Assembly: GCA_017795005.1 (NCBI GenBank)
Contig: CP051242.1
Location: forward strand, 3,154,119-3,218,118
DNA length: 64,000 nucleotides
Direction: 5' to 3'
Origin: Balneolaceae bacterium
GTDB taxonomy: Bacteria > Bacteroidota > Rhodothermia > Balneolales > Balneolaceae
Shown: piece by piece, positions 16,572 through 27,998 of the stretch
Numbering within the stretch: position 1 is the stretch's first letter
Layout of the letters: each line of letters begins with the position of its first letter
Made by a program: the position numbers and the translations under genes
Notes under the pieces: model-generated
Seen by the model: the letters and a program-made list of their open reading frames with translations, nothing else
What the model was told of the DNA's origin: nothing
Database searches by the model: none

Positions 16572-18992
16572 TCAATAAATCTCAGGGAAATCACCCGGAC
16601 GACATTCCTTCATGATGTCGTAGATCTCATCAAATATTTCTTCGGCATTAGGTTTACTGAAATAATCTCCATCTGAGGCGTACGCAGGTCGGTGTGCTTT
16701 AGCCGTTAAGCAACGGGGTTCTGAGTCGAGAAAATAAAAGCCTTTTTGCTCCTGAACTATGTTCTGCATAATAAATGCGGAAGCTCCACCGGGAACGTCT
16801 TCATCCACAACAAGTAAACGGTTGGTTTTCTTAACCGATTCAACAATTGTATGATTGATATCGAAAGGCATAAGTGTTCTTACATCAATTACTTCTGCAG
16901 AGATTCCTACTTCCTCCAAGTCCGGTAAAATGGAGGTAAGAATATTCAATGTAGAGCCATAAGATACTACGGTAATATCTGTTCCTTCGTTTAATACTTC
17001 AGGAATACCCAAAGGAGTAGTGAACTCACCCATATTAGTTGGTTGTGGCTCTTTAAGTCGATATGCATTTAACGGCTCTATTACTATTGCAGGATCATCT
17101 CCTTGCATCAGAGTATTATAGAAACCTGCCGCTTCGGTCAGATTTCTTGGAACACATAAATGAACTCCTTTAGCTCCTCCCAAAATAACTCCCATCGGAG
17201 AACCTGAATGCCAGATTCCTTCCAGTCTGTGACCTCTGGTTCTGATTATAACTGGTGAAGCTTGTCCTCCTTTTGTTCTGTAACGTAGTGTAGCGAGGTC
17301 ATCACTTAATACATAAAAACAATACAACAGATAGTCGAGATATTGAATTTCTGCAATAGGGCGAAGTCCACGGAGTGCCATTCCAATCCCTTGTCCAAGA
17401 ATAGTAGCTTCACGGATTCCGGTATCTGTGACACGAAGTTTACCGAACTTTTCCTGAAGCCCCTCCATTCCTTTGTTCACATCACCAAGTGCTCCTACAT
17501 CTTCCCCGAAAGCAAGCACTTCTGGATGGTTGTCAAAAATCTTCTCAAAATTATCCCGAACTACAATTCTTCCATCCACCAGATCGGGTTCTTTTGAATA
17601 CTTAGGTGGAACATGCTCTACATTCAGCGGCGAATAAGGAGTTTGGCTGAGCAAATGAGAATTATACCGCTCTTCATTAACAGGCTCATTTTCTTTTAAC
17701 CAGTTTATAAGTTCTTTTCTTGCTGTATGGTCTGATCCTACCGTAAATCGTACAGCTTTTCTAGCCGCAGGAATAATATCTTTACGGATTGCGTTAGGAG
17801 TAATTTTTAACTTTTTGATCAGATCACCCAGTCTTGAATCTCCGGTAGCTTCAATAAGCTGATTAATTCGTTCCATAACGAATTTCTTCTCTTCTTTCAT
17901 CGGAGAAATATAGGTGTCCCAGGCTTTTGCTTTCGCTTTGGTTACTTCCTGTAAAGCCTCTGCTTCAATCTGGTCCAAATCTGCTTCATGGGCAATCTTT
18001 TTGGCCAGTATCCATTTTCTCAATTGTTGTAAGCAACAATATTCCACTTCCCATTCAAGACGCTCCTTACTTTTATAGCGCTCATGCGAACCTGAAGTAG
18101 AATGACCCTGAGGTTGGGTTACTTCTTCCACATGAACAAGAACCGGAACATGATCTATTCTGGCGATCTCAGCAGCTTGTTCGTAGGTAGCAATCAAATC
18201 CTGATAATCCCATGCCTTTACATTAAAAATCTCGTAACCTGGCTCATCTTCTGTTCTTTGGAATCCGGCAAGTGCTTTTGAAATACTTTCTTTAGTGGTC
18301 TGATATTTTTTAGGAACAGAAATACCAAATGCATCGTCCCAAACAGACATCACAAAAGGAAGCTGTAACACTCCAATTGCATTCATAGCTTCCCAGAATA
18401 CTCCTTCCGAAGTGCTGGCATCGCCAATTGTGCCAAATGCTACTTCATTTCCGCCATTCGAAAATTTCTTCCATTTTCCTTTGTGGAGAGCCTTATTCTC
18501 GCGGTACACTTTTGACGCCTGAGCCAGCCCCACCAATCTCGCCATTTGCCCTGCAGTAGGTGAGATACCGGACGCTGAATTTTTACTTTTCGTCTGATCA
18601 ATCCAGTTTCCTTCCTCGTCAACTAACCGGGTACCAAAGTGAGAATTCATTTGTCTGCCAGCTGAGAATGGATCTGCTTTCTCATCAGGATGAGCATAAA
18701 GCTGAGCAAAAAACTGTTCGATTGTCAATTCACCTATAGCCAGCATAAAAGTTTGATCGCGATAATATCCGGATCTGAAATCCCCCTCCCTAAACACTTT
18801 AGCCATGGCTATTTGGGGTATTTCTTTCCCGTCACCAAAAATACCAAACTTGGCTTTCCCGGATAATACTTCCTTTCTCCCGGTCAAAGACATATACCTG
18901 CTAATCCACCCTAAACGGTAGTCTCCAAGTATTTCTTTTTTTTGAGCAGCAGTAAAGGTTTTCCTGGTATTTGGTGCCTTAACTTCAGCCAT
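16572..18992 (-). CDS. Fused E1 alpha/beta subunit of a 2-oxo acid dehydrogenase complex
   Basis: An 806-residue thiamine-diphosphate enzyme. Residues about 1-400 are the E1 alpha half with the TPP motif GDASTSEGVFWEAMNAIG near 191, and WDDAFGISVPKK. Residues about 470-806 are the E1 beta half (FGEDVGALGDVNKGMEGL, GGASAFIMQNIVQ). It would decarboxylate a 2-oxo acid and pass the acyl group to an E2 lipoyl protein that is not in the window. The branched-chain type is most similar to me, but the substrate is uncertain. The single-chain form is usual in Bacteroidota. Palindromic GCCCT/AGGGC sequences lie in its leader. Confidence 0.85.
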   Translation of the reverse strand: MAEVKAPNTRKTFTAAQKKEILGDYRLGWISRYMSLTGRKEVLSGKAKFGIFGDGKEIPQIAMAKVFREGDFRSGYYRDQTFMLAIGELTIEQFFAQLYAHPDEKADPFSAGRQMNSHFGTRLVDEEGNWIDQTKSKNSASGISPTAGQMARLVGLAQASKVYRENKALHKGKWKKFSNGGNEVAFGTIGDASTSEGVFWEAMNAIGVLQLPFVMSVWDDAFGISVPKKYQTTKESISKALAGFQRTEDEPGYEIFNVKAWDYQDLIATYEQAAEIARIDHVPVLVHVEEVTQPQGHSTSGSHERYKSKERLEWEVEYCCLQQLRKWILAKKIAHEADLDQIEAEALQEVTKAKAKAWDTYISPMKEEKKFVMERINQLIEATGDSRLGDLIKKLKITPNAIRKDIIPAARKAVRFTVGSDHTARKELINWLKENEPVNEERYNSHLLSQTPYSPLNVEHVPPKYSKEPDLVDGRIVVRDNFEKIFDNHPEVLAFGEDVGALGDVNKGMEGLQEKFGKLRVTDTGIREATILGQGIGMALRGLRPIAEIQYLDYLLYCFYVLSDDLATLRYRTKGGQASPVIIRTRGHRLEGIWHSGSPMGVILGGAKGVHLCVPRNLTEAAGFYNTLMQGDDPAIVIEPLNAYRLKEPQPTNMGEFTTPLGIPEVLNEGTDITVVSYGSTLNILTSILPDLEEVGISAEVIDVRTLMPFDINHTIVESVKKTNRLLVVDEDVPGGASAFIMQNIVQEQKGFYFLDSEPRCLTAKAHRPAYASDGDYFSKPNAEEIFDEIYDIMKECRPGDFPEIY

Positions 18993-19018
18993 AGGTTATC
19001 TTACTTTTTAAAGATTAA

Positions 19019-19052
19019 TTGCCCTAAAGAAAGGGCACTTAATATAGGGCAA
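19019..19052 (-). promoter_or_regulatory. Inverted-repeat cluster upstream of the fused E1 gene
   Basis: TTGCCCT (19019-19025) is the reverse complement of AGGGCAA (19046-19052), and GCCCT can also pair with the nearer AGGGC (19032-19036), so two exclusive hairpins are possible 27-60 bp upstream of the start codon. Operator or leader hairpin are both possible; the sequence does not settle which. Confidence 0.3.
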
Positions 19053-19127
19053 AACTGTGTTTTTTTAAAGTAATAAAACTGTTAAATCTAATAACGACTT
19101 TAACTTAAAGCTCAATAAAACAGTGGT

Positions 19128-20531
19128 TTACAAAATTGATTGATCTGTAAAACCTCCCTTAGTCATCTTTATTGGATCCAAAGCTTTATCCAATTCTTCT
19201 TCCGATAAATCGGTCATTTCTTTGGCTACATCCTTTAATGCACGGTTTTCAGCATATGCTTTTTTAGCAATTTTAGCTGCCAGATCATATCCGATAATTG
19301 GATTAAGCGCAGTAACTAAAATTGGATTCCTCCCAACCATATCAGCGATCCTATCTTTTCTTACAGTAAGTTTTGATACAGACCGGTCTGCCAAGTTCCT
19401 GGCTGCATTTCCTAAAACCCGAATAGACTCCAGTAAGTTATGAGCTACAACTGGAAGCATAACATTTAACTCAAAATTACCCATTTGCCCACCTACCGTG
19501 ATTGCTGCGTCGTTACCGATTACCTGAGCACATACCATTGTAACTGATTCTTCTATAACCGGATTTACTTTTCCCGGCATAATGGAAGATCCGGGTTGTA
19601 GTGCTGCGAGTTGCACTTCTCCTATTCCACTATTAGGACCTGAATTCATCCAGCGAAGATCATTCGCAATTTTCATCATACTTACTGCTATTGTTTTAAG
19701 CTGACCACTTAGTTCGACAGGAGCATCAACGGTTGCCTGTGCCTCAAAATGATTCTCAGCTTCGATAAAATCTTCTCCAGTTAGTTCTGAAATTCTTTCC
19801 GCAAATAATTTCCCAAATTCGGGATGAGTATTAATTCCCGTTCCAACAGCTGTCCCACCCTGGGGTAATTCTTTGACTCTTTCCAAAGCAGCTTCCACTC
19901 GTTGAATGCCTAATTCTATCTGTCTGGCGTATCCACCAAATTCTTGTTCAATAGTAACAGGCATGGCATCCATAAGGTGAGTACGACCTGTTTTTACGAC
20001 ATCTGCATATTCTTTCCCCTTTTCAAGAAAGGTATCATGGAGATGCCTGAGCGCAGGTATCAATTCATTCTTTGCTGAGAGCAGTGCAGCAATTCTGATT
20101 GCTGTTGGAATAACATCGTTAGAACTCTGACCAAAATTTACATGGTCATTTGGATGGATTGTAACATCTGTACCGGATTTCATCTCGTTTGCAAGATGAC
20201 TAATCACCTCATTTGTATTCATATTACTGGAAGTACCAGATCCGGTTTGAAAGATATCAATAACAAACTCCTTGTCGTGCTTTCCATCGACCACTTCCTG
20301 AGCCGCCTGATTTATAGCTTCGGCAACTTCGTTTTCTAATAAGCCTAATTTATTATTTGTAAGAGCAGCTGATTTCTTGATATAGCCTAATGCCTGAATA
20401 AAATCTCTGCTGAATCGAATGCCACTTATTGGGAAATTATCATGCGCCCTTTGTGTTTGCGCACCATAAAGGGCATTTGCGGGCACTTTTATTTCACCCA
20501 TGGAATCTTTTTCTATCCTGTAATCGCTCAT
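19128..20531 (-). CDS. fumC: Class II fumarate hydratase
   Basis: Adds water to fumarate to give malate in the TCA cycle. The 467-residue protein has the fumarase/aspartase signature GSSIMPGKVNPV near residue 318, TGSGTSSNMNTNE near 97, and catalytic His in GRTHLMDAMPV near 188. Class II enzymes are heat-stable tetramers without iron-sulfur clusters, and the length is typical. It is preceded by about 100 bp with no clear Shine-Dalgarno; the start ATG follows an A/T-rich tract. It is a single gene, not obviously linked with the E1 gene downstream. Confidence 0.96.
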   Translation of the reverse strand: MSDYRIEKDSMGEIKVPANALYGAQTQRAHDNFPISGIRFSRDFIQALGYIKKSAALTNNKLGLLENEVAEAINQAAQEVVDGKHDKEFVIDIFQTGSGTSSNMNTNEVISHLANEMKSGTDVTIHPNDHVNFGQSSNDVIPTAIRIAALLSAKNELIPALRHLHDTFLEKGKEYADVVKTGRTHLMDAMPVTIEQEFGGYARQIELGIQRVEAALERVKELPQGGTAVGTGINTHPEFGKLFAERISELTGEDFIEAENHFEAQATVDAPVELSGQLKTIAVSMMKIANDLRWMNSGPNSGIGEVQLAALQPGSSIMPGKVNPVIEESVTMVCAQVIGNDAAITVGGQMGNFELNVMLPVVAHNLLESIRVLGNAARNLADRSVSKLTVRKDRIADMVGRNPILVTALNPIIGYDLAAKIAKKAYAENRALKDVAKEMTDLSEEELDKALDPIKMTKGGFTDQSIL

Positions 20532-20634: not shown

Positions 20635-21756
20635 TCAAAGTTTCTTTGAATACATTCTGTAGGTTTTATCTTTCGTAGCCCCAAGTCGTTCAGCAGTGCG
20701 AATCATGTCTGGATTATTTGCAAGTACCCAGCTTAATTCTGAAGTATTAATACCTTTTGCGAGAGCTTTTTCAATTGCAGCTTGATGTAAAAGTGCATCG
20801 ATTCCCCTACCCTGTACTTCTGGCAATACTCCCATTAAAGCGGTTCGGTATTGTTTGATTTTCCGACGCCCAAAAAGCAATTTAAAAATCCCAAATGGAA
20901 AAAGATTACCCTTCATTTTTTTGAAGATTTTATTCAAATCCGGCAAACCAATAGAAAATGCGATCGGCTTACCATCTACTTCGGCAATATGGGCAAGGTC
21001 TGGGTCTAAAATAAGTTTAAAATCTTCGGCCGTTGCTTGCAATTCTTCTCGCGTTAAAGGCAAAAAACCCCAATTATCCTTCCAGGTGATGTTATAAATC
21101 TCACGAACAATTTCGACTTCTTCTGATATTTTTTTGAGATTTACGGGTCGAATAACCAGACCAGGATTTCTTTTAAGTACAATTTTTTTTGCTCTTTCGC
21201 CTCTTTCAATATCAACAGAATCTTCATTTATTGTATAGGCCAATAAATCCATTTCCTGTTCATACCCTGCTGATTTTACAAGCTCTTCATAAAATGGTTT
21301 GGTATAAGGCATCATTATGTATGGATCTTTATCGAAGCCATCTACCAGAAAACCAATCATATCCATCAAACTGGGATTGGTTGGTCCAATGACATCCTCC
21401 ATGCCTTTATCGCGAAGCCAGTCTTCTGCTACTCTGAATAGTAAATTTGCGGTAGGCTGGTGATCAATACACTCAAAAAAAGCAAAATGCCCAGTCTTAT
21501 TATTATGGTGTTTATTGAATCTATGATCGACAACTGCTGCTATTCTACCTGCAATTTCACCTTCATGTTCGGCTATAAACAACGCGATTTCAGCATTATT
21601 ATAAAATGGGTTTTTCTTGGTATTGAGCAGTTTTTTTTGATCCATTCTAAGTGGAGGAACAAAATGTTCGTCCATTTTATAATGATCATACTGAAATTCT
21701 ATAAATTTCTTTTTTTCCGCGTCTGTAGTAACAATAGTTACACCACTCGAGCTCAT
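20635..21756 (-). CDS. GNAT-like acyltransferase, candidate ceramide synthase
   Basis: A 373-residue protein. The C-terminal part carries the GNAT acyl-CoA-binding motif (VQGRGIDALLHQAA near residue 315), while residues about 50-170 form a second GNAT-like region with VIGPTNPSLMDMIGFLVDGFD. Such double-GNAT proteins of unknown substrate are frequent beside serine palmitoyltransferase in Bacteroidota. The gene lies 10 bp downstream of spt. Acyltransferases of this fold have been implicated as bacterial ceramide synthases in Caulobacter-type sphingolipid synthesis; I infer that role from position. N-acetylation of another substrate is possible. Confidence 0.7.
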   Translation of the reverse strand: MSSSGVTIVTTDAEKKKFIEFQYDHYKMDEHFVPPLRMDQKKLLNTKKNPFYNNAEIALFIAEHEGEIAGRIAAVVDHRFNKHHNNKTGHFAFFECIDHQPTANLLFRVAEDWLRDKGMEDVIGPTNPSLMDMIGFLVDGFDKDPYIMMPYTKPFYEELVKSAGYEQEMDLLAYTINEDSVDIERGERAKKIVLKRNPGLVIRPVNLKKISEEVEIVREIYNITWKDNWGFLPLTREELQATAEDFKLILDPDLAHIAEVDGKPIAFSIGLPDLNKIFKKMKGNLFPFGIFKLLFGRRKIKQYRTALMGVLPEVQGRGIDALLHQAAIEKALAKGINTSELSWVLANNPDMIRTAERLGATKDKTYRMYSKKL

Positions 21757-21766
21757 ACCCTGTTTA

Positions 21767-22999
21767 TTAATTTGCGGAGTGCCCGTTGTTGTCGATTAAA
21801 CCATGCTTCAAACCAATTTTCCTGAAAGCATCAAGTATTCTATTAAGATGATCATCGGTATGGCTTGCCATGTAACTGGTTCGTAACAGTGATTGCCCCT
21901 GAGGTACAGCCGGAGGAATTACAGCGTTTGCATATACACCTTCCTCAAAAAGATCTTTCCAGAAACGGAAACATTGCATCATATCGCCGATAACTACGGG
22001 AATAATTGGAGACTGGCTACTCCAAACATTAAAACCCAGATTTTTTAACTCGGTTCTCATATATAATGAGATTTCTTCGAGGCGCTTTATTCTCCATGGT
22101 TCTTCCTGAAGAATTTCAAGAGCTTTAAGCACTGTAGCTACATTTGCAGGTGGCATAGATGCACTAAAAATATGAGCTGGAGAATGATGTCTTATAAATT
22201 CAATCACCGGGCGATCTCCTACCAAAAAACCTCCAAGTGATGCAAATGATTTTGAGAATGTACCGCTGATTAAATCCACTTCATCTGTTAATCCAAATAC
22301 AGATGCAGACCCACGACCACCATCACCGACAACTCCTACTGCGTGTGCATCATCCAGATATAACCTGGCACCAAATTCTTTTGCTAAAGCTACTAATTCC
22401 GGGATTTTTGCAAGGGTACCAGACATAGAAAATACCCCATCACTAATAATAATTTTACCGGCATTCGGGTCAGCCTTTTCAAGCATCTTTCGAAGCTGAT
22501 CCATATCGTTATGCTGATACCGAATTGTTTTTGCATTGGAAACCAGCGTACCAACTACAATACAAGCATGATTATCCCGATCAGAGAAAATGAGATCATT
22601 TCTTCCAGCAATAGTTTGGATTGATCCTTCATTAGTTTGGTATCCGGTACTAAAAAGAACACAGGATTCTTTTCCAAGAAATTCCGCCAGTTTTTCTTCC
22701 AATTCGAGGTGTATATCCAATGTACCATTTAAGTAACGCGATCCTGTACATCCTGTACCGTATTTTGTAAGGGCGTCCTGAGCAGCTTTAATTGTACGTT
22801 GATCGTTTGTAAGACCAAGATAATTATTAGAGCCTGCCATGATTACTTCATGGCCTTCTATTTCAACGATGGTTCCATCAGTAGCTTCCAAAGGTTTGAA
22901 ATATGGGTACAACCCCATTTCCTTTACTTCATCAGCTTTTGTGAAGTTAAATGCTTTTGTAAAAATATCCTGAGTAGCTGCTTTTTTATTATCACCCAT
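21767..22999 (-). CDS. spt: Serine palmitoyltransferase (PLP-dependent alpha-oxoamine synthase)
   Basis: Condenses L-serine with palmitoyl-CoA to 3-oxosphinganine, the first step of sphingolipid synthesis. I start at the ATG at 22999; a TTG six codons upstream is an alternative. The protein has the spt-like pattern AGSNNYLGLTNDQR, YGTGCTGSRYLNGT and LEEKLAEFLGKE, the PLP-lysine motif GTFSKSFASLGG near 240, and DDAHAVGV near 220. Compared with KBL or BioF, the GTGCTGSRYLNGT context fits SPT best. Next to it lie a GNAT protein, two GT4 glycosyltransferases and an SDR, consistent with a sphingolipid pathway. Confidence 0.85.
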   Translation of the reverse strand: MGDNKKAATQDIFTKAFNFTKADEVKEMGLYPYFKPLEATDGTIVEIEGHEVIMAGSNNYLGLTNDQRTIKAAQDALTKYGTGCTGSRYLNGTLDIHLELEEKLAEFLGKESCVLFSTGYQTNEGSIQTIAGRNDLIFSDRDNHACIVVGTLVSNAKTIRYQHNDMDQLRKMLEKADPNAGKIIISDGVFSMSGTLAKIPELVALAKEFGARLYLDDAHAVGVVGDGGRGSASVFGLTDEVDLISGTFSKSFASLGGFLVGDRPVIEFIRHHSPAHIFSASMPPANVATVLKALEILQEEPWRIKRLEEISLYMRTELKNLGFNVWSSQSPIIPVVIGDMMQCFRFWKDLFEEGVYANAVIPPAVPQGQSLLRTSYMASHTDDHLNRILDAFRKIGLKHGLIDNNGHSAN

Positions 23000-23086
23000 A
23001 TGGTCGATCCTTACCAAATTTTCTATATAAACACCGCAATATAGCTAGTATTGAATTGCTTTCAAATTGATTAACTCTGTGCCCGC

Positions 23087-24217
23087 TTAATTAGATTTAC
23101 TGTAGTTCTTAACAATATCTCTAAGATAAGAAATATAGCTATCCGCGACTTTATTCCAGGCGAAGTTTTCCTTAACAAAATGACGACTTTCCGCTCCAAA
23201 TTTTCCCGGCTCATTTTTTAATACTTCGTCAATTTTAAAGGCGAATTCTTGAGAGTTATAAACAGGGATTTTAAACCCATTTTCGCCATTTTCAACTACA
23301 TCTTTAATTCCTTCAAGATCTGATGCTACAGCCGGAGTTGCCGCAAGATTTGCTTCTAATAGTACAATTCCAAATCCTTCCATATCCCCTTCAACTGGTA
23401 TATTTGGCATGATGAATAAATCTGCTGCTGAATACGCATTTTTTAAAATTTCGTCTGGTTGTTTACCAACAAGTAGTATGTTGTTTTTATGATCAGACTC
23501 TTCCCTTACTTTTAACAATTCTTCATGCTCAGGGCCTTCCCCAATAGCCAGGTAAATAACTTCTGATTTAATTTTTGGGAGTACTTCGCGAATAAACCAT
23601 TCATGACCTTTTCTTTTTACCTGTCTGCCAACCGTAAGCAAAATATTTCTGCCCGCCAAATCCACAGCGAATCTATTCTCTAAAACTTTTAAACTTTCCT
23701 TCGGATCAGGTACATCTTCGAAATCCGTCATATCGAATCCGTTTGGTAAGGCAATACCTTTTTCAGGATTCATACCTCTTTTGATGCATTCGTCTCTTGT
23801 TGCTCGGGATACTGAAATCACTCCATCCAAAGCATTAAAAACCTTGGGTACAAAATTCTGATAGATTCCAACCGGCATTTTTACATCCTGACCATGATTA
23901 ATGGTTACCATTGGGACATTAATTCGGTTTCTGATGAATTTTGCAAGGCTTGCTGTTACCATTGACGAAAACAGGATCACATCAGGGTTAAACACCTCTA
24001 CAATTTTTGGGAGTTTAATTGCTAACCTTATCAAAAAAAAAGTTGTTCGTAATTCTATACCTTTCCAGGGTGCGTGTTGAATAATCGTTTTAATTACAAT
24101 GTCTTCTCTTTGCTTCAATTCATCTACTAATTGCATACTCACACGTTGCATACCTCCTATACTTTTAAGAGGAGCATTCTCGGGTGGGTGAAGATGTGAT
24201 ATATATAGAATTCGCAA
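23087..24217 (-). CDS. GT4 glycosyltransferase, probable lipid glycosyl transferase
   Basis: A TTG start at 24217 lies one base after the stop of the upstream GT gene and begins MRILYISHLHPPENAP, the expected first strand of a GT-B fold. A longer reading from an upstream in-frame ATG overlaps the neighbour by 79 nt and is probably wrong. The C-terminal domain has the GT4 donor-site pattern GEGPEHEELLKV near residue 220, and PVEGDMEGFGIVLLEA near 285 with the two conserved acidic residues. Substrate unknown; linked to spt, so a glycosphingolipid transferase is plausible. Confidence 0.75.
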   Translation of the reverse strand: MRILYISHLHPPENAPLKSIGGMQRVSMQLVDELKQREDIVIKTIIQHAPWKGIELRTTFFLIRLAIKLPKIVEVFNPDVILFSSMVTASLAKFIRNRINVPMVTINHGQDVKMPVGIYQNFVPKVFNALDGVISVSRATRDECIKRGMNPEKGIALPNGFDMTDFEDVPDPKESLKVLENRFAVDLAGRNILLTVGRQVKRKGHEWFIREVLPKIKSEVIYLAIGEGPEHEELLKVREESDHKNNILLVGKQPDEILKNAYSAADLFIMPNIPVEGDMEGFGIVLLEANLAATPAVASDLEGIKDVVENGENGFKIPVYNSQEFAFKIDEVLKNEPGKFGAESRHFVKENFAWNKVADSYISYLRDIVKNYSKSN

Positions 24218-24218
24218 C

Positions 24219-25376
24219 TTATTCCTTTCCAGATTGTTCGAGAACTTCCCGATAATTATTAACGAGCCCCGAGTTAATCGAATCCCACTGATATCCAAGA
24301 GCCATGTCTCTGGAACTTACTCCCATAGCAAGTCTTTTAGATTCATCAGCAATAACTTTTTCAAGTTGTTTGCTAAAATCCTCTACACTTTCTTTCCTCC
24401 CAAGAAATCCATTAACACCATTTTCAACTAATGATTTACTTCCAATGGCATCAGCAACAATGCAAGGCAATCCACTTGCCATAGCTTCGAGGGTAACATT
24501 GCCGAAAGTTTCTGTATGTGATGGAAACATGAAAACATCTGCACTAGCATATGCTCTTGCTAAATCTTCTCCTTTAGCAAATCCAGTAAAGTGAGCCGAT
24601 GGTAATAACCCTTCTGCTTCTTCCTTTGCAGGACCACTTCCTACAACCAATGCTCTTACTCTTTTATCCTTTTTTTGAACACTTTTTATAGCATTGATAT
24701 AAGTTCCCAGTTCTTTCTCCCAAACCAACCTCGAAACAAACGCTACTACAATATCATCATCTGCAAATCCTACATTTCTTCTCCACTCCATGTCTCTTTT
24801 AGATGGATTGAAACGTTCTGTATCGATCCCCCGGGCCCATAATCTCATATTTCCAGGTATGCCTTCACGATGAAGTTCTTCAATCATAGACCTGGATGGC
24901 ACATAAGTATGTATAAATTGCTTATAAAACCACTTCATCATCATTTTGAAGGGTATTTTAATGGGGTTCAGATACTTTGCGTAATAATCTGCATAACTTA
25001 GAAAATGAGTATGGTATGAGGTAACAACAGGGATTTTTCTTTTCTTTGCCCAACGTAACGCTCCAATACCAAGCCCATCCGGAGTTGCTATATGAATTAG
25101 TGTAGGATTGAATTCTTCCAGTCTTTTTTTGGCAGATCCGGAAAAATGAGTAGCTATTCTATACTCCTCTCTTCCCGGAACCAACATTGGAATTGAAGGG
25201 GTAACAACAAGTTCGCCGCAATGATCAATTTTTGGATTTTTGATACTAGGTCCGAAAACTAACACCGGTATTCCCTGATCTTCCAAATATTTTACTAATC
25301 GGTTTAGAGTGAGAGACACTCCATCTCTGATATGATTATAGTTACCGGTAAAGAGAGCAACTCTTAGTTCTTTCAT
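24219..25376 (-). CDS. GT4 glycosyltransferase (MgtA/SQD2-like)
   Basis: A 385-residue GT-B enzyme. The N-terminus MKELRVALFTGNYNHIRDGVSLTLNRL and the segment SYHTHFLSYADYYA near residue 120 are typical of the alpha-mannosyl/sulfoquinovosyl transferase branch. The C-terminal donor motif is ALVVGSGPAKEEAEGL near 245, followed by FMFPSHTETFGNVTLEAMASG near 282 with the E-x7-E glutamates. These enzymes glycosylate lipids such as diacylglycerol. It is the first gene of the minus-strand run GT4, GT4, spt, GNAT, so it may glycosylate a sphingolipid base or ceramide. Confidence 0.82.
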   Translation of the reverse strand: MKELRVALFTGNYNHIRDGVSLTLNRLVKYLEDQGIPVLVFGPSIKNPKIDHCGELVVTPSIPMLVPGREEYRIATHFSGSAKKRLEEFNPTLIHIATPDGLGIGALRWAKKRKIPVVTSYHTHFLSYADYYAKYLNPIKIPFKMMMKWFYKQFIHTYVPSRSMIEELHREGIPGNMRLWARGIDTERFNPSKRDMEWRRNVGFADDDIVVAFVSRLVWEKELGTYINAIKSVQKKDKRVRALVVGSGPAKEEAEGLLPSAHFTGFAKGEDLARAYASADVFMFPSHTETFGNVTLEAMASGLPCIVADAIGSKSLVENGVNGFLGRKESVEDFSKQLEKVIADESKRLAMGVSSRDMALGYQWDSINSGLVNNYREVLEQSGKE

Positions 25377-25479
25377 AAAAGTTTAAAAGCCAAACTCAGA
25401 TTCGTATCTTTCTTTCTATTAACCTTTCTGAAATTTGGTTGGTTAGATTCTAAAATATAATCGATAAATATACACATTT

Positions 25480-26457
25480 ATGATAGCCTTTGTCACTGGC
25501 GGAACCGGATTTGTTGGCAGCCATTTAGTGGAAGCACTTATCGCCGACCCTGACTATACAGAAGTACGTTGTTTGGTAAGAAGTTCCGATAAATGGCTTA
25601 CAGGATTAAATTTTACAAAAGTTACCGGCGATTTATTTGATTTAAAAACGATTGGGGAAGCCCTTGACGGGGTAGACATCGTGTTTCATAATGCTGCTAT
25701 TCTAAAAGCACCATCGAAAAGAGAGTTTACCAGAACGAATGTAGAAGCCACAGAAAACCTTATCCGAATAGCGCAAAAAAAAGGTATTACAAATTTTGTA
25801 ATTACATCTTCAATTGCAGCTGCAGGTCCAAGTTCCGGTTTCCCCCTTTCTGAAAAAGCCAGAATGAAACCTGTAAGTATGTATGGCGAGTCAAAAAAAG
25901 AAATGGAAACTGTAATCCATAAAATTTCAGGGAAATCTGACAGTATCAAAATACTTCGCCCCCCAGCAGTTTATGGTCCCCGTGAATCGGACATTTACAC
26001 TTTCTTTAAAACCTTTAAATCCGGAATAGCTCCTATTGTAGGCGACGGGAACCATCCCACCCTTTCGTTAGTATATGTGACTGACTTAGTAAAAGGAATT
26101 ATGCTTTCGGCTAAAAAAACTGACTCTGGTATTCATACCTATTTTCTTGGAGGGGAACAGGAGGAGTATTCCTGGAACCAGATTACTGAAATTACCTCTA
26201 TTGTAATGGGCAGAAAAGCGATTAAAATTAAGTTGAAACCCGAATGGGTTAAAAAGCTGGGTTCTTTAATTGAAAATACTGCATCATTATTTGGCAAATA
26301 CCCCGTTGTTAACAAAGAAAAATCTAACGAAATGGTACTTGAGTGGGTATGTTCTTCCGATAAAGCACGAAAAGAACTAGGTTACAATCCGGTAATGAGC
26401 ATTCAGGAAGGTTTTTCCAGAACCATACATTGGTACAAAAAACATAATTGGCTATAA
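25480..26457 (+). CDS. NAD(P)-dependent epimerase/dehydratase-type SDR, candidate sphingolipid (CerR-like) reductase
   Basis: A 325-residue extended SDR. TGGTGFVGSHLVEAL near residue 6 is the Rossmann NAD(P) motif, TSSIAAAG near 112, and the catalytic YGESK near 136 supplies the Tyr/Lys pair. The C-terminal half follows the extended SDR layout. The gene is divergent from the GT4 gene, 103 bp apart. In Caulobacter an SDR of this type (CerR) acts in ceramide synthesis next to spt, so I suggest reduction of a 3-oxo-sphingoid intermediate. Sugar-nucleotide epimerase activity cannot be excluded by sequence alone. Confidence 0.7.
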   Translation: MIAFVTGGTGFVGSHLVEALIADPDYTEVRCLVRSSDKWLTGLNFTKVTGDLFDLKTIGEALDGVDIVFHNAAILKAPSKREFTRTNVEATENLIRIAQKKGITNFVITSSIAAAGPSSGFPLSEKARMKPVSMYGESKKEMETVIHKISGKSDSIKILRPPAVYGPRESDIYTFFKTFKSGIAPIVGDGNHPTLSLVYVTDLVKGIMLSAKKTDSGIHTYFLGGEQEEYSWNQITEITSIVMGRKAIKIKLKPEWVKKLGSLIENTASLFGKYPVVNKEKSNEMVLEWVCSSDKARKELGYNPVMSIQEGFSRTIHWYKKHNWL

Positions 26458-26462
26458 CATCT

Positions 26463-27998
26463 ATGATCAGACGCATTACCATATTTTTAGTTCTTCTTTT
26501 TTGCATTGGAGAAACCTATGCTCAATCTCAGATTATTCAGGATTATTCGAGAATATTAAATATCCCAAACGTAAAAACAATGGAGGCTTCCTCTTCACAT
26601 TTGTATGTGCTTTCTGAAACGGAGGGGATGGCTGTTTTTCGTACTTATGAAGATTCCCTTCAATGGCTATACACCTCATCGGGAATGCAACGCCGTGGAT
26701 ATTTAATGGATGCTGATATCCGTTTCGCATATCTCTATGGAGATTCTCGACGTTTAACAGTTTTAGAACCCACATCCGTTCTTGGGGTTTACTCATCCAC
26801 TTTACTTCCTGCCAGACCATTAGGCGTAGCCCGCCTACAAAATGAATTATATATAGCAATGGGAAGTGAAGGTCTTGGGAAGCTTTCTTTAAGTACACCT
26901 GAAACAGTAGACTCTGATGCAGAGCTTGTTGCGAACGATATTATTGGAAGAGCGAATGTATTGGATGTTGCTTCATCAATAATTAGTAACCAGTTATTTG
27001 TTCTTACAAGCGATTCTAAAATTCATGTTTTCATTATTGAGGAAGCAGAATTTCGACTTGAGTCTACGGTAGGACTAGGCGTTCAAATTCATAACCTTTT
27101 TCTTGATGAAGGCTTAATTTGGGGAGCAACTCAAGCAGGTCAGATTTTTGAAATTAACGCAAACGGACTTGGGAAGAATCTGGGTAATATTGGCGAGAGA
27201 GTTTCAGATTTACTTAGCTGGAGAAATCATATTTTTGCAAGGAGCTCTTCCGGGAAAATCTGGTTATCTACCAACGAACAACCATTTGTTGAATGGAAAG
27301 CTGATCCTTCTTCAATGAACCATATCACAAAAAGCAGTTACACCGTCTGGCTGAATATTTTCAATAAACTAAGTCCTCTAAAGATTGGAGAAGCAGCAGA
27401 ATCAAATTCATTAAATCAACCTCAATACCCGTCCAGACTTAAAATTGAGCCTATTGAAGATCTTATTCTTACTTACCCTAAACCGTTATTACTCGGTATT
27501 GAATTCGAAGGCAATTATCCTGCTGAAGATCTGGAATTAACTTATAGATCTAATGTATCCAACGCTTCTCTCAAAAAACAAGGGTTATACTGGCAACCCA
27601 TGGTTAATCAGGTTGGATATAACTGGTTTACTATCATTGCTACTAATTCAAAAGGGGAAATAGATAGTGTGCGTTTTTCTGTAGATGTTCGCACATTCAA
27701 TGCTCCTCCCAGATTTAGTCCGGTCAGGGGTTCCTCCATAGTGGTAAATGATCCCTATGAAATTACATTTAATGCCGTTGACCCGGAAAATCCTGCCAAT
27801 TCAATCATTCGTTATTTAGGAGTTGACTTACCTGATGGAGCTAATTTGGATGAACGCACGGGAAAATTTACATGGACTCCAACTGAACGTCAGGTCGGCA
27901 AAACCACCTTCCGCATTATAGCTACCGATGCACAAGGGGCTGCTACTTCTCAGGACATCACACTTACCATAATTGATATTTCACGTGAGGGGCAATAA
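26463..27998 (+). CDS. Secreted propeller/Ig-like protein with C-terminal cadherin-like repeat
   Basis: I start at the ATG at 26463 (MIRRITIFLVLLFCIGETYAQ), giving a clean signal peptide; an upstream TTG would add five residues. The N-terminal two-thirds is beta-rich with propeller-like blocks (TSDSKIHVFIIEEAEF). From about residue 330 there is an Ig-like segment, and the last 95 residues (FNAVDPENPANSIIRYLG, GKFTWTPTERQVGKTTFRI) form a cadherin/He_PIG-like Ig domain. The protein is likely periplasmic or surface-exposed. It overlaps the frame of no other gene, but starts 5 bp after the SDR, so co-expression is likely. Role unknown. Confidence 0.7.
   Translation: MIRRITIFLVLLFCIGETYAQSQIIQDYSRILNIPNVKTMEASSSHLYVLSETEGMAVFRTYEDSLQWLYTSSGMQRRGYLMDADIRFAYLYGDSRRLTVLEPTSVLGVYSSTLLPARPLGVARLQNELYIAMGSEGLGKLSLSTPETVDSDAELVANDIIGRANVLDVASSIISNQLFVLTSDSKIHVFIIEEAEFRLESTVGLGVQIHNLFLDEGLIWGATQAGQIFEINANGLGKNLGNIGERVSDLLSWRNHIFARSSSGKIWLSTNEQPFVEWKADPSSMNHITKSSYTVWLNIFNKLSPLKIGEAAESNSLNQPQYPSRLKIEPIEDLILTYPKPLLLGIEFEGNYPAEDLELTYRSNVSNASLKKQGLYWQPMVNQVGYNWFTIIATNSKGEIDSVRFSVDVRTFNAPPRFSPVRGSSIVVNDPYEITFNAVDPENPANSIIRYLGVDLPDGANLDERTGKFTWTPTERQVGKTTFRIIATDAQGAATSQDITLTIIDISREGQ

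Follow-up and report, generated by a model that had tools for sequence, protein, structure and literature searches.

One of the closest known counterparts of the locus reported here is the ceramide cluster of Caulobacter and Sphingomonas, which comprises spt, bcerS (aca) and cerR (epi). The Caulobacter reductase CerR has been shown to be periplasmic and reportedly acts once acylation has taken place (PMC11087976). A published list of the genes needed to make dihydroceramide includes yghO of Escherichia coli as the ceramide N-acyltransferase (PMC9386255). In Caulobacter, ceramide is glycosylated sequentially by the products of two adjacent GT4 glycosyltransferase genes, sgt1 and sgt2 (ccna_00793 and ccna_00792) (PMC6445935), and in Bacteroides fragilis BF9343_3149 is a GT4 alpha-galactosylceramide synthase (PMC9692976). 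It has been remarked that spt, bcerS, and cerR do not lie close together in sphingolipid-producing Bacteroidota (PMC11334938).

We analyzed a locus in the window, a 64,000-nucleotide stretch of a Balneolaceae genome that consists of a single contig of 3.75 Mb; the closest named loci are those of other Balneolaceae. With the Caulobacter/Sphingomonas cluster it shares an orthologous acyltransferase and reductase (reciprocal best matches with Sphingomonas), and the same set of reactions would be expected. It differs in having a serine palmitoyltransferase (SPT) of the Bacteroidota type, 39% identical to the Sphingomonas SPT, in having no dedicated acyl carrier protein (ACP) or acyl-ACP synthetase gene, and in being compact and divergent, with GT4 genes included. 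The same three genes in the same divergent orientation, an extended short-chain dehydrogenase/reductase (SDR) gene facing away from SPT and a GNAT acyltransferase gene, form a unit in other Bacteroidota and Ignavibacteria (e.g., on an Aureispira plasmid, L059), but there no glycosyltransferase genes separate the SDR and SPT genes. The GT4 pair can be likened, by description rather than by sequence, to Caulobacter sgt1/sgt2, although the locus numbers of these genes lie a long way from spt (ccna_01220), and to BF9343_3149, a GT4 enzyme from a relative within the phylum for which activity on ceramide is known but which works as a single enzyme, not as one of a pair. The locus is very probably a ceramide synthesis locus of a known kind, with a widespread core and an order-specific GT4 pair.

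Gene layout and the condensing enzyme

The five open reading frames described in the initial annotation were recovered in the ORF listing at the same positions and on the same strands, and Pfam searches returned the same domains. Four lie on the minus strand: GT4-a (24219 to 25376, 385 amino acids), GT4-b (23087 to 24217, 376 amino acids), SPT (21767 to 22999), and the GNAT gene (20635 to 21756). The SDR gene (25480 to 26457) lies on the plus strand. Two of these coordinates are corrected, the open reading frames as called being 21767 to 23017 for SPT and 23087 to 24298 for GT4-b, both on the minus strand. The GT4-b start first given, 24298, is too far upstream; a TTG at 24217, 1 base past the GT4-a stop and preceded by GGAAAGGA, is the most likely start, and that of SPT is most likely the ATG at 22999, which is preceded by AAGGA and lies close to where the alignments of its relatives begin. 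With these starts the minus-strand genes are separated by 1 base (GT4-a/GT4-b), 87 bases (GT4-b/SPT), and 10 bases (SPT/GNAT), consistent with a single transcript, and the divergent SDR and GT4-a genes are separated by 103 bases. A promoter scan gave promoter-like matches no more commonly than in shuffled sequence; gene geometry makes this 103-base intergenic region (25377 to 25479) the probable site of both promoters.

The SPT shares 50% identity with 8guh, a Sphingobacterium SPT of solved structure (E value of 1.5e-124), and its active site is complete, with N, H, D, H, and K at the equivalents of N52, H138, D210, H213, and K244 and LLRTS at the catalytic arginine. Its best model was the NCBIfam equivalog NF047600 (SerpalmtaseCFB), at 500.6 bits against a curated cut-off of 640, so the assignment rests on the active site, similarity, and context. 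That shortfall, together with the halocapnines present in the related halophiles Salinibacter and Salinivenus (PMC5167729), could point to an enzyme that yields a sulfonolipid precursor from cysteate, or some other alpha-oxoamine, in place of 3-ketosphinganine. We regard this as very improbable. The sulfonolipid enzyme SulA and SPT are told apart at one position, Lys281 in SulA and Ala in SPT (PMC9304779); active-site comparison placed Ala there in the locus enzyme, and the sulfonolipid reading was rejected on that basis. Alpha-oxoamine synthase genes from three other genomes, suspected to be SulA, encode Lys at the same position, and their products are only 31 to 32% identical to the locus SPT. 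Identity to a Thermus KBL-type enzyme was 38%, against the 50% seen with the solved SPT.

Acyltransferase, reductase, and the core unit

In the protein comparisons, plasmid-borne spt clusters of Sphingomonas and Pseudomonas stood in for Caulobacter CCNA_01212 and CCNA_01222 and for B. fragilis proteins. The GNAT protein (Pfam Acetyltransf_1) aligned over its full length with the acyltransferases of these clusters at 35 to 36% identity. Searched back, the Sphingomonas acyltransferase found the locus GNAT as its sole match in the genome, a reciprocal match at 37% identity (E value of 2.7e-69), and the Pseudomonas relative carries the annotation yghO. An AlphaFold2 model of the GNAT protein (pLDDT of 92.8) adopted a tandem GNAT fold (Z score of 25.4 and rmsd of 3.3 over 304 residues to 7q3a). 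The N-myristoyltransferase fold was also among its structural relatives; N-myristoyltransferase likewise transfers a long acyl chain. That the locus GNAT is an orthologue of the bacterial ceramide synthase (bCerS/Aca/YghO) is well supported by these comparisons, and N-acylation of the long-chain base is the predicted reaction. A second GNAT type was set by similarity rather than as a clade because the GNAT tree leaves its deep forks unsettled.

Residues 312 to 320 of the locus GNAT form an intact CoA-pyrophosphate loop, PEVQGRGID, which is missing from two proteobacterial relatives encoded in spt clusters. The difference may reflect the use of acyl-CoA versus acyl-ACP donors.

The SDR (Pfam Epimerase/3Beta_HSD) carries the nucleotide-binding motif GGTGFVG and a YxxxK motif in the form YGESK, and it aligns over its full length with SDRs from four spt clusters. 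With the Sphingomonas spt-cluster SDR as the query, it was the sole match in the genome (28% identity; E value of 2.4e-21), and both proteins lack an N-terminal extension ahead of the nucleotide-binding motif. The initial annotation had assigned the SDR and the GNAT protein to the Caulobacter-type reductase and ceramide synthase families, and these unique matches to Sphingomonas cluster proteins bear it out; for the SDR they make a CerR-type assignment, still a candidate one, firmer than the general family resemblance first invoked.

Following condensation, the tandem GNAT enzyme would place a second acyl chain on the amine, and the SDR would then most likely act on the acylated product, reducing its 3-keto group, in line with the scheme put forward for Caulobacter. 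Sequence by itself does not reveal which of the two steps comes first. SPTs can also use alanine as a substrate, so products of the 1-deoxy type are one conceivable departure from this scheme; another is reduction ahead of acylation, as in eukaryotes, for which the classical SDR BT_0972 of Bacteroides, an enzyme that reduces 3-ketosphinganine directly, provides a precedent (PMC9278070). Both departures seem unlikely: the locus enzyme is an extended SDR, reciprocal with a proteobacterial spt-cluster reductase, and its Caulobacter counterpart reportedly acts on the acylated intermediate (PMC11087976).

The association of these genes extends well beyond the window. Of 118 genomes sampled from the phylum, 86 have both SPT and GNAT and 28 have neither, with GNAT only in three and SPT only in one (Fisher P value of 1e-22, a figure that overstates the association because the genomes share kinship), and the two co-vary even within families (f10 and f13). 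The initial annotation had made its pathway assignment depend on GNAT being linked to spt in relatives, and linkage held. Of the 21 sampled families in which both genes occur, 14 have them adjacent and in an unchanged order, and among 80 named GNAT loci drawn from many phyla, 54 have SPT close by. A divergent SDR gene beside SPT, arranged as at the locus but with no glycosyltransferases, occurs in a number of families, among them f14, f17, and f29, and the full divergent SDR/SPT-GNAT unit was seen in other Bacteroidota families, in Ignavibacteria, and in a member of the Gemmatimonadota. Co-directional SPT-GNAT-SDR trios were found in Rubrobacter, Acidobacteria, and others. Since the trio recurs across so many phyla, its association is not due to chance. 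The compact unit in many Bacteroidota families runs contrary to the published remark on gene dispersal in that group (PMC11334938), and the breadth of SPT-GNAT co-occurrence supports the tandem GNAT family as the general bacterial ceramide N-acyltransferase.

It follows that the gene arrangement, first described as unlike that of the well-studied cases, is unusual only in its glycosyltransferase pair; the core layout is ordinary, being common in Bacteroidota and Ignavibacteria. On a Rubrobacter plasmid (Actinomycetota; L058, 4704 to 8071) SPT, GNAT, and SDR form a compact operon whose GNAT is 40% identical to that of the locus.

The glycosyltransferase pair

Both enzymes of the pair have GT4 Pfam domains (Glycos_transf_1 and Glyco_transf_4 in GT4-b) and an EX7E motif, ETFGNVTLE in GT4-a and EGFGIVLLE in GT4-b. 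Matches to the PDB were weak and pointed to the GT4 enzymes of PIM and bacillithiol synthesis. By analogy with Sgt1 and Sgt2 of Caulobacter, the two enzymes, co-directional with SPT and GNAT, would add one sugar and then a second to ceramide. GT4-a lies between the SDR and SPT genes, on the SPT strand, in all 18 genomes of the order (the family and a sister family), and GT4-b does so in 16 of the 18. Nine named loci of the Balneolaceae type cover the whole region, and the pair occupies this slot in every one; a tenth ends at a contig edge.

A literature search turned up no record of sphingolipids from Balneolota. Species descriptions in the Balneolaceae note unidentified glycolipids (PMC12260241, PMC5167729), two of them in Fodinibius alkaliphilus (PMC12260241), and the locus is a genetic candidate for their synthesis. 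Our reading of the backbone draws on which genes are present, their homology and active-site residues, and the way they co-occur and keep their order; we infer the enzymatic steps, whether acylation precedes reduction, and above all the glycosyltransferase acceptor. Taken by itself, the ceramide backbone is highly probable. That the locus makes dihydroceramide and also, probably, glycosylates it is the reading we favor on balance, and for the pair as such we lean, from position only, toward ceramide as the acceptor. Of the glycosylated sphingolipid pathway first proposed for this locus, the ceramide part stands on the SPT-GNAT linkage, and the glycosylation is plausible, with relatives of GT4-a occurring both with and without SPT.

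The ceramide part could be correct and the pair still act on diacylglycerol or another lipid, its genes being merely parked between SDR and SPT. We consider this the less probable reading, though one of appreciable weight. The closest curated models of GT4-a are those of phospholipid and diacylglycerol glycosyltransferases, namely the GlcN-phosphatidylglycerol synthase NF053787 (143 bits; cut-off, 480) and the monoglucosyldiacylglycerol synthase NF049988 (115 bits; cut-off, 400), both cut-offs being missed by a wide margin. A B. fragilis GT4 enzyme that clusters with diacylglycerol glucosyltransferases is inactive on ceramide (PMC9692976). Relatives of GT4-a and GT4-b are found throughout the class, mostly as an adjacent pair, but the pair sits between SDR and SPT only in Balneolaceae and the sister family; in the other families of the class it lies apart from spt. 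Outside the class GT4-a does not track SPT, being mostly absent from one family that has SPT (f14) and present in another that lacks it (f9).

Inertia may itself account for where the pair sits, since the flanks are syntenic too: on the SDR side MutY and a 516-amino-acid protein are conserved as far as the sister family, and on the GNAT side fumarase and a 2-oxoacid dehydrogenase are kept in most named Balneolaceae loci. Against such a parked pair stand its location inside an SDR/SPT/GNAT unit that is otherwise phylum-wide, its SPT strand and short gaps, and the refilling of its second slot in G061, one of the two genomes of the order without GT4-b there. In genus g5, to which G061 belongs, the GT4-b orthologue is also missing from the other three sampled genomes; G061 is the one genome of the genus that was read, and its slot holds a different GT4 gene (L158, 8979 to 10154). 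Glycosylation of ceramide by the pair is nonetheless put forward with caution because the flanks are syntenic, because GT4-a does not follow SPT outside the class, and because sequence does not fix the acceptor.

Across the phylum an SDR gene commonly adjoins SPT, and insertion of the glycosyltransferase pair between the two would therefore be the most parsimonious history. Tentatively, and with slightly less than even confidence, we suggest that in the Balneolales a preexisting glycolipid GT4 pair may have entered the ancestral divergent SDR/SPT-GNAT unit and given rise to a self-contained glycosphingolipid operon, which would make the group's unidentified glycolipids and whose second sugar would have been changed by glycosyltransferase replacement in one genus.

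Neighboring genes and a related gene pair

In the other families of the class (L141 to L150), UvrA adjoins the glycosyltransferase genes, and several of these loci also encode an MMPL-type transporter and a DUF3047 protein. As a clue to the acceptor these neighbors are suggestive of lipid work, not decisive; the last two would also suit an acceptor other than ceramide. In the window, the gene for the 516-amino-acid protein (26448 to 27998) directly follows SDR; its product has a C-terminal Ig-like domain and is 39 to 56% identical to its Balneolaceae and sister-family counterparts. Downstream of GNAT, on the same strand, are the genes for fumarase and a fused 2-oxoacid dehydrogenase (16572 to 20531).

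Three genomes of a further family (f18) have no SPT of the window type. In each, a distant GNAT relative (24 to 28% identity) adjoins an alpha-oxoamine synthase gene encoding Lys at the SulA-281 position (L160, 6931 to 9367; L161, 5088 to 7521; L162, 5002 to 8067), and this GNAT is a candidate N-acyltransferase in sulfonolipid (capnine) synthesis.
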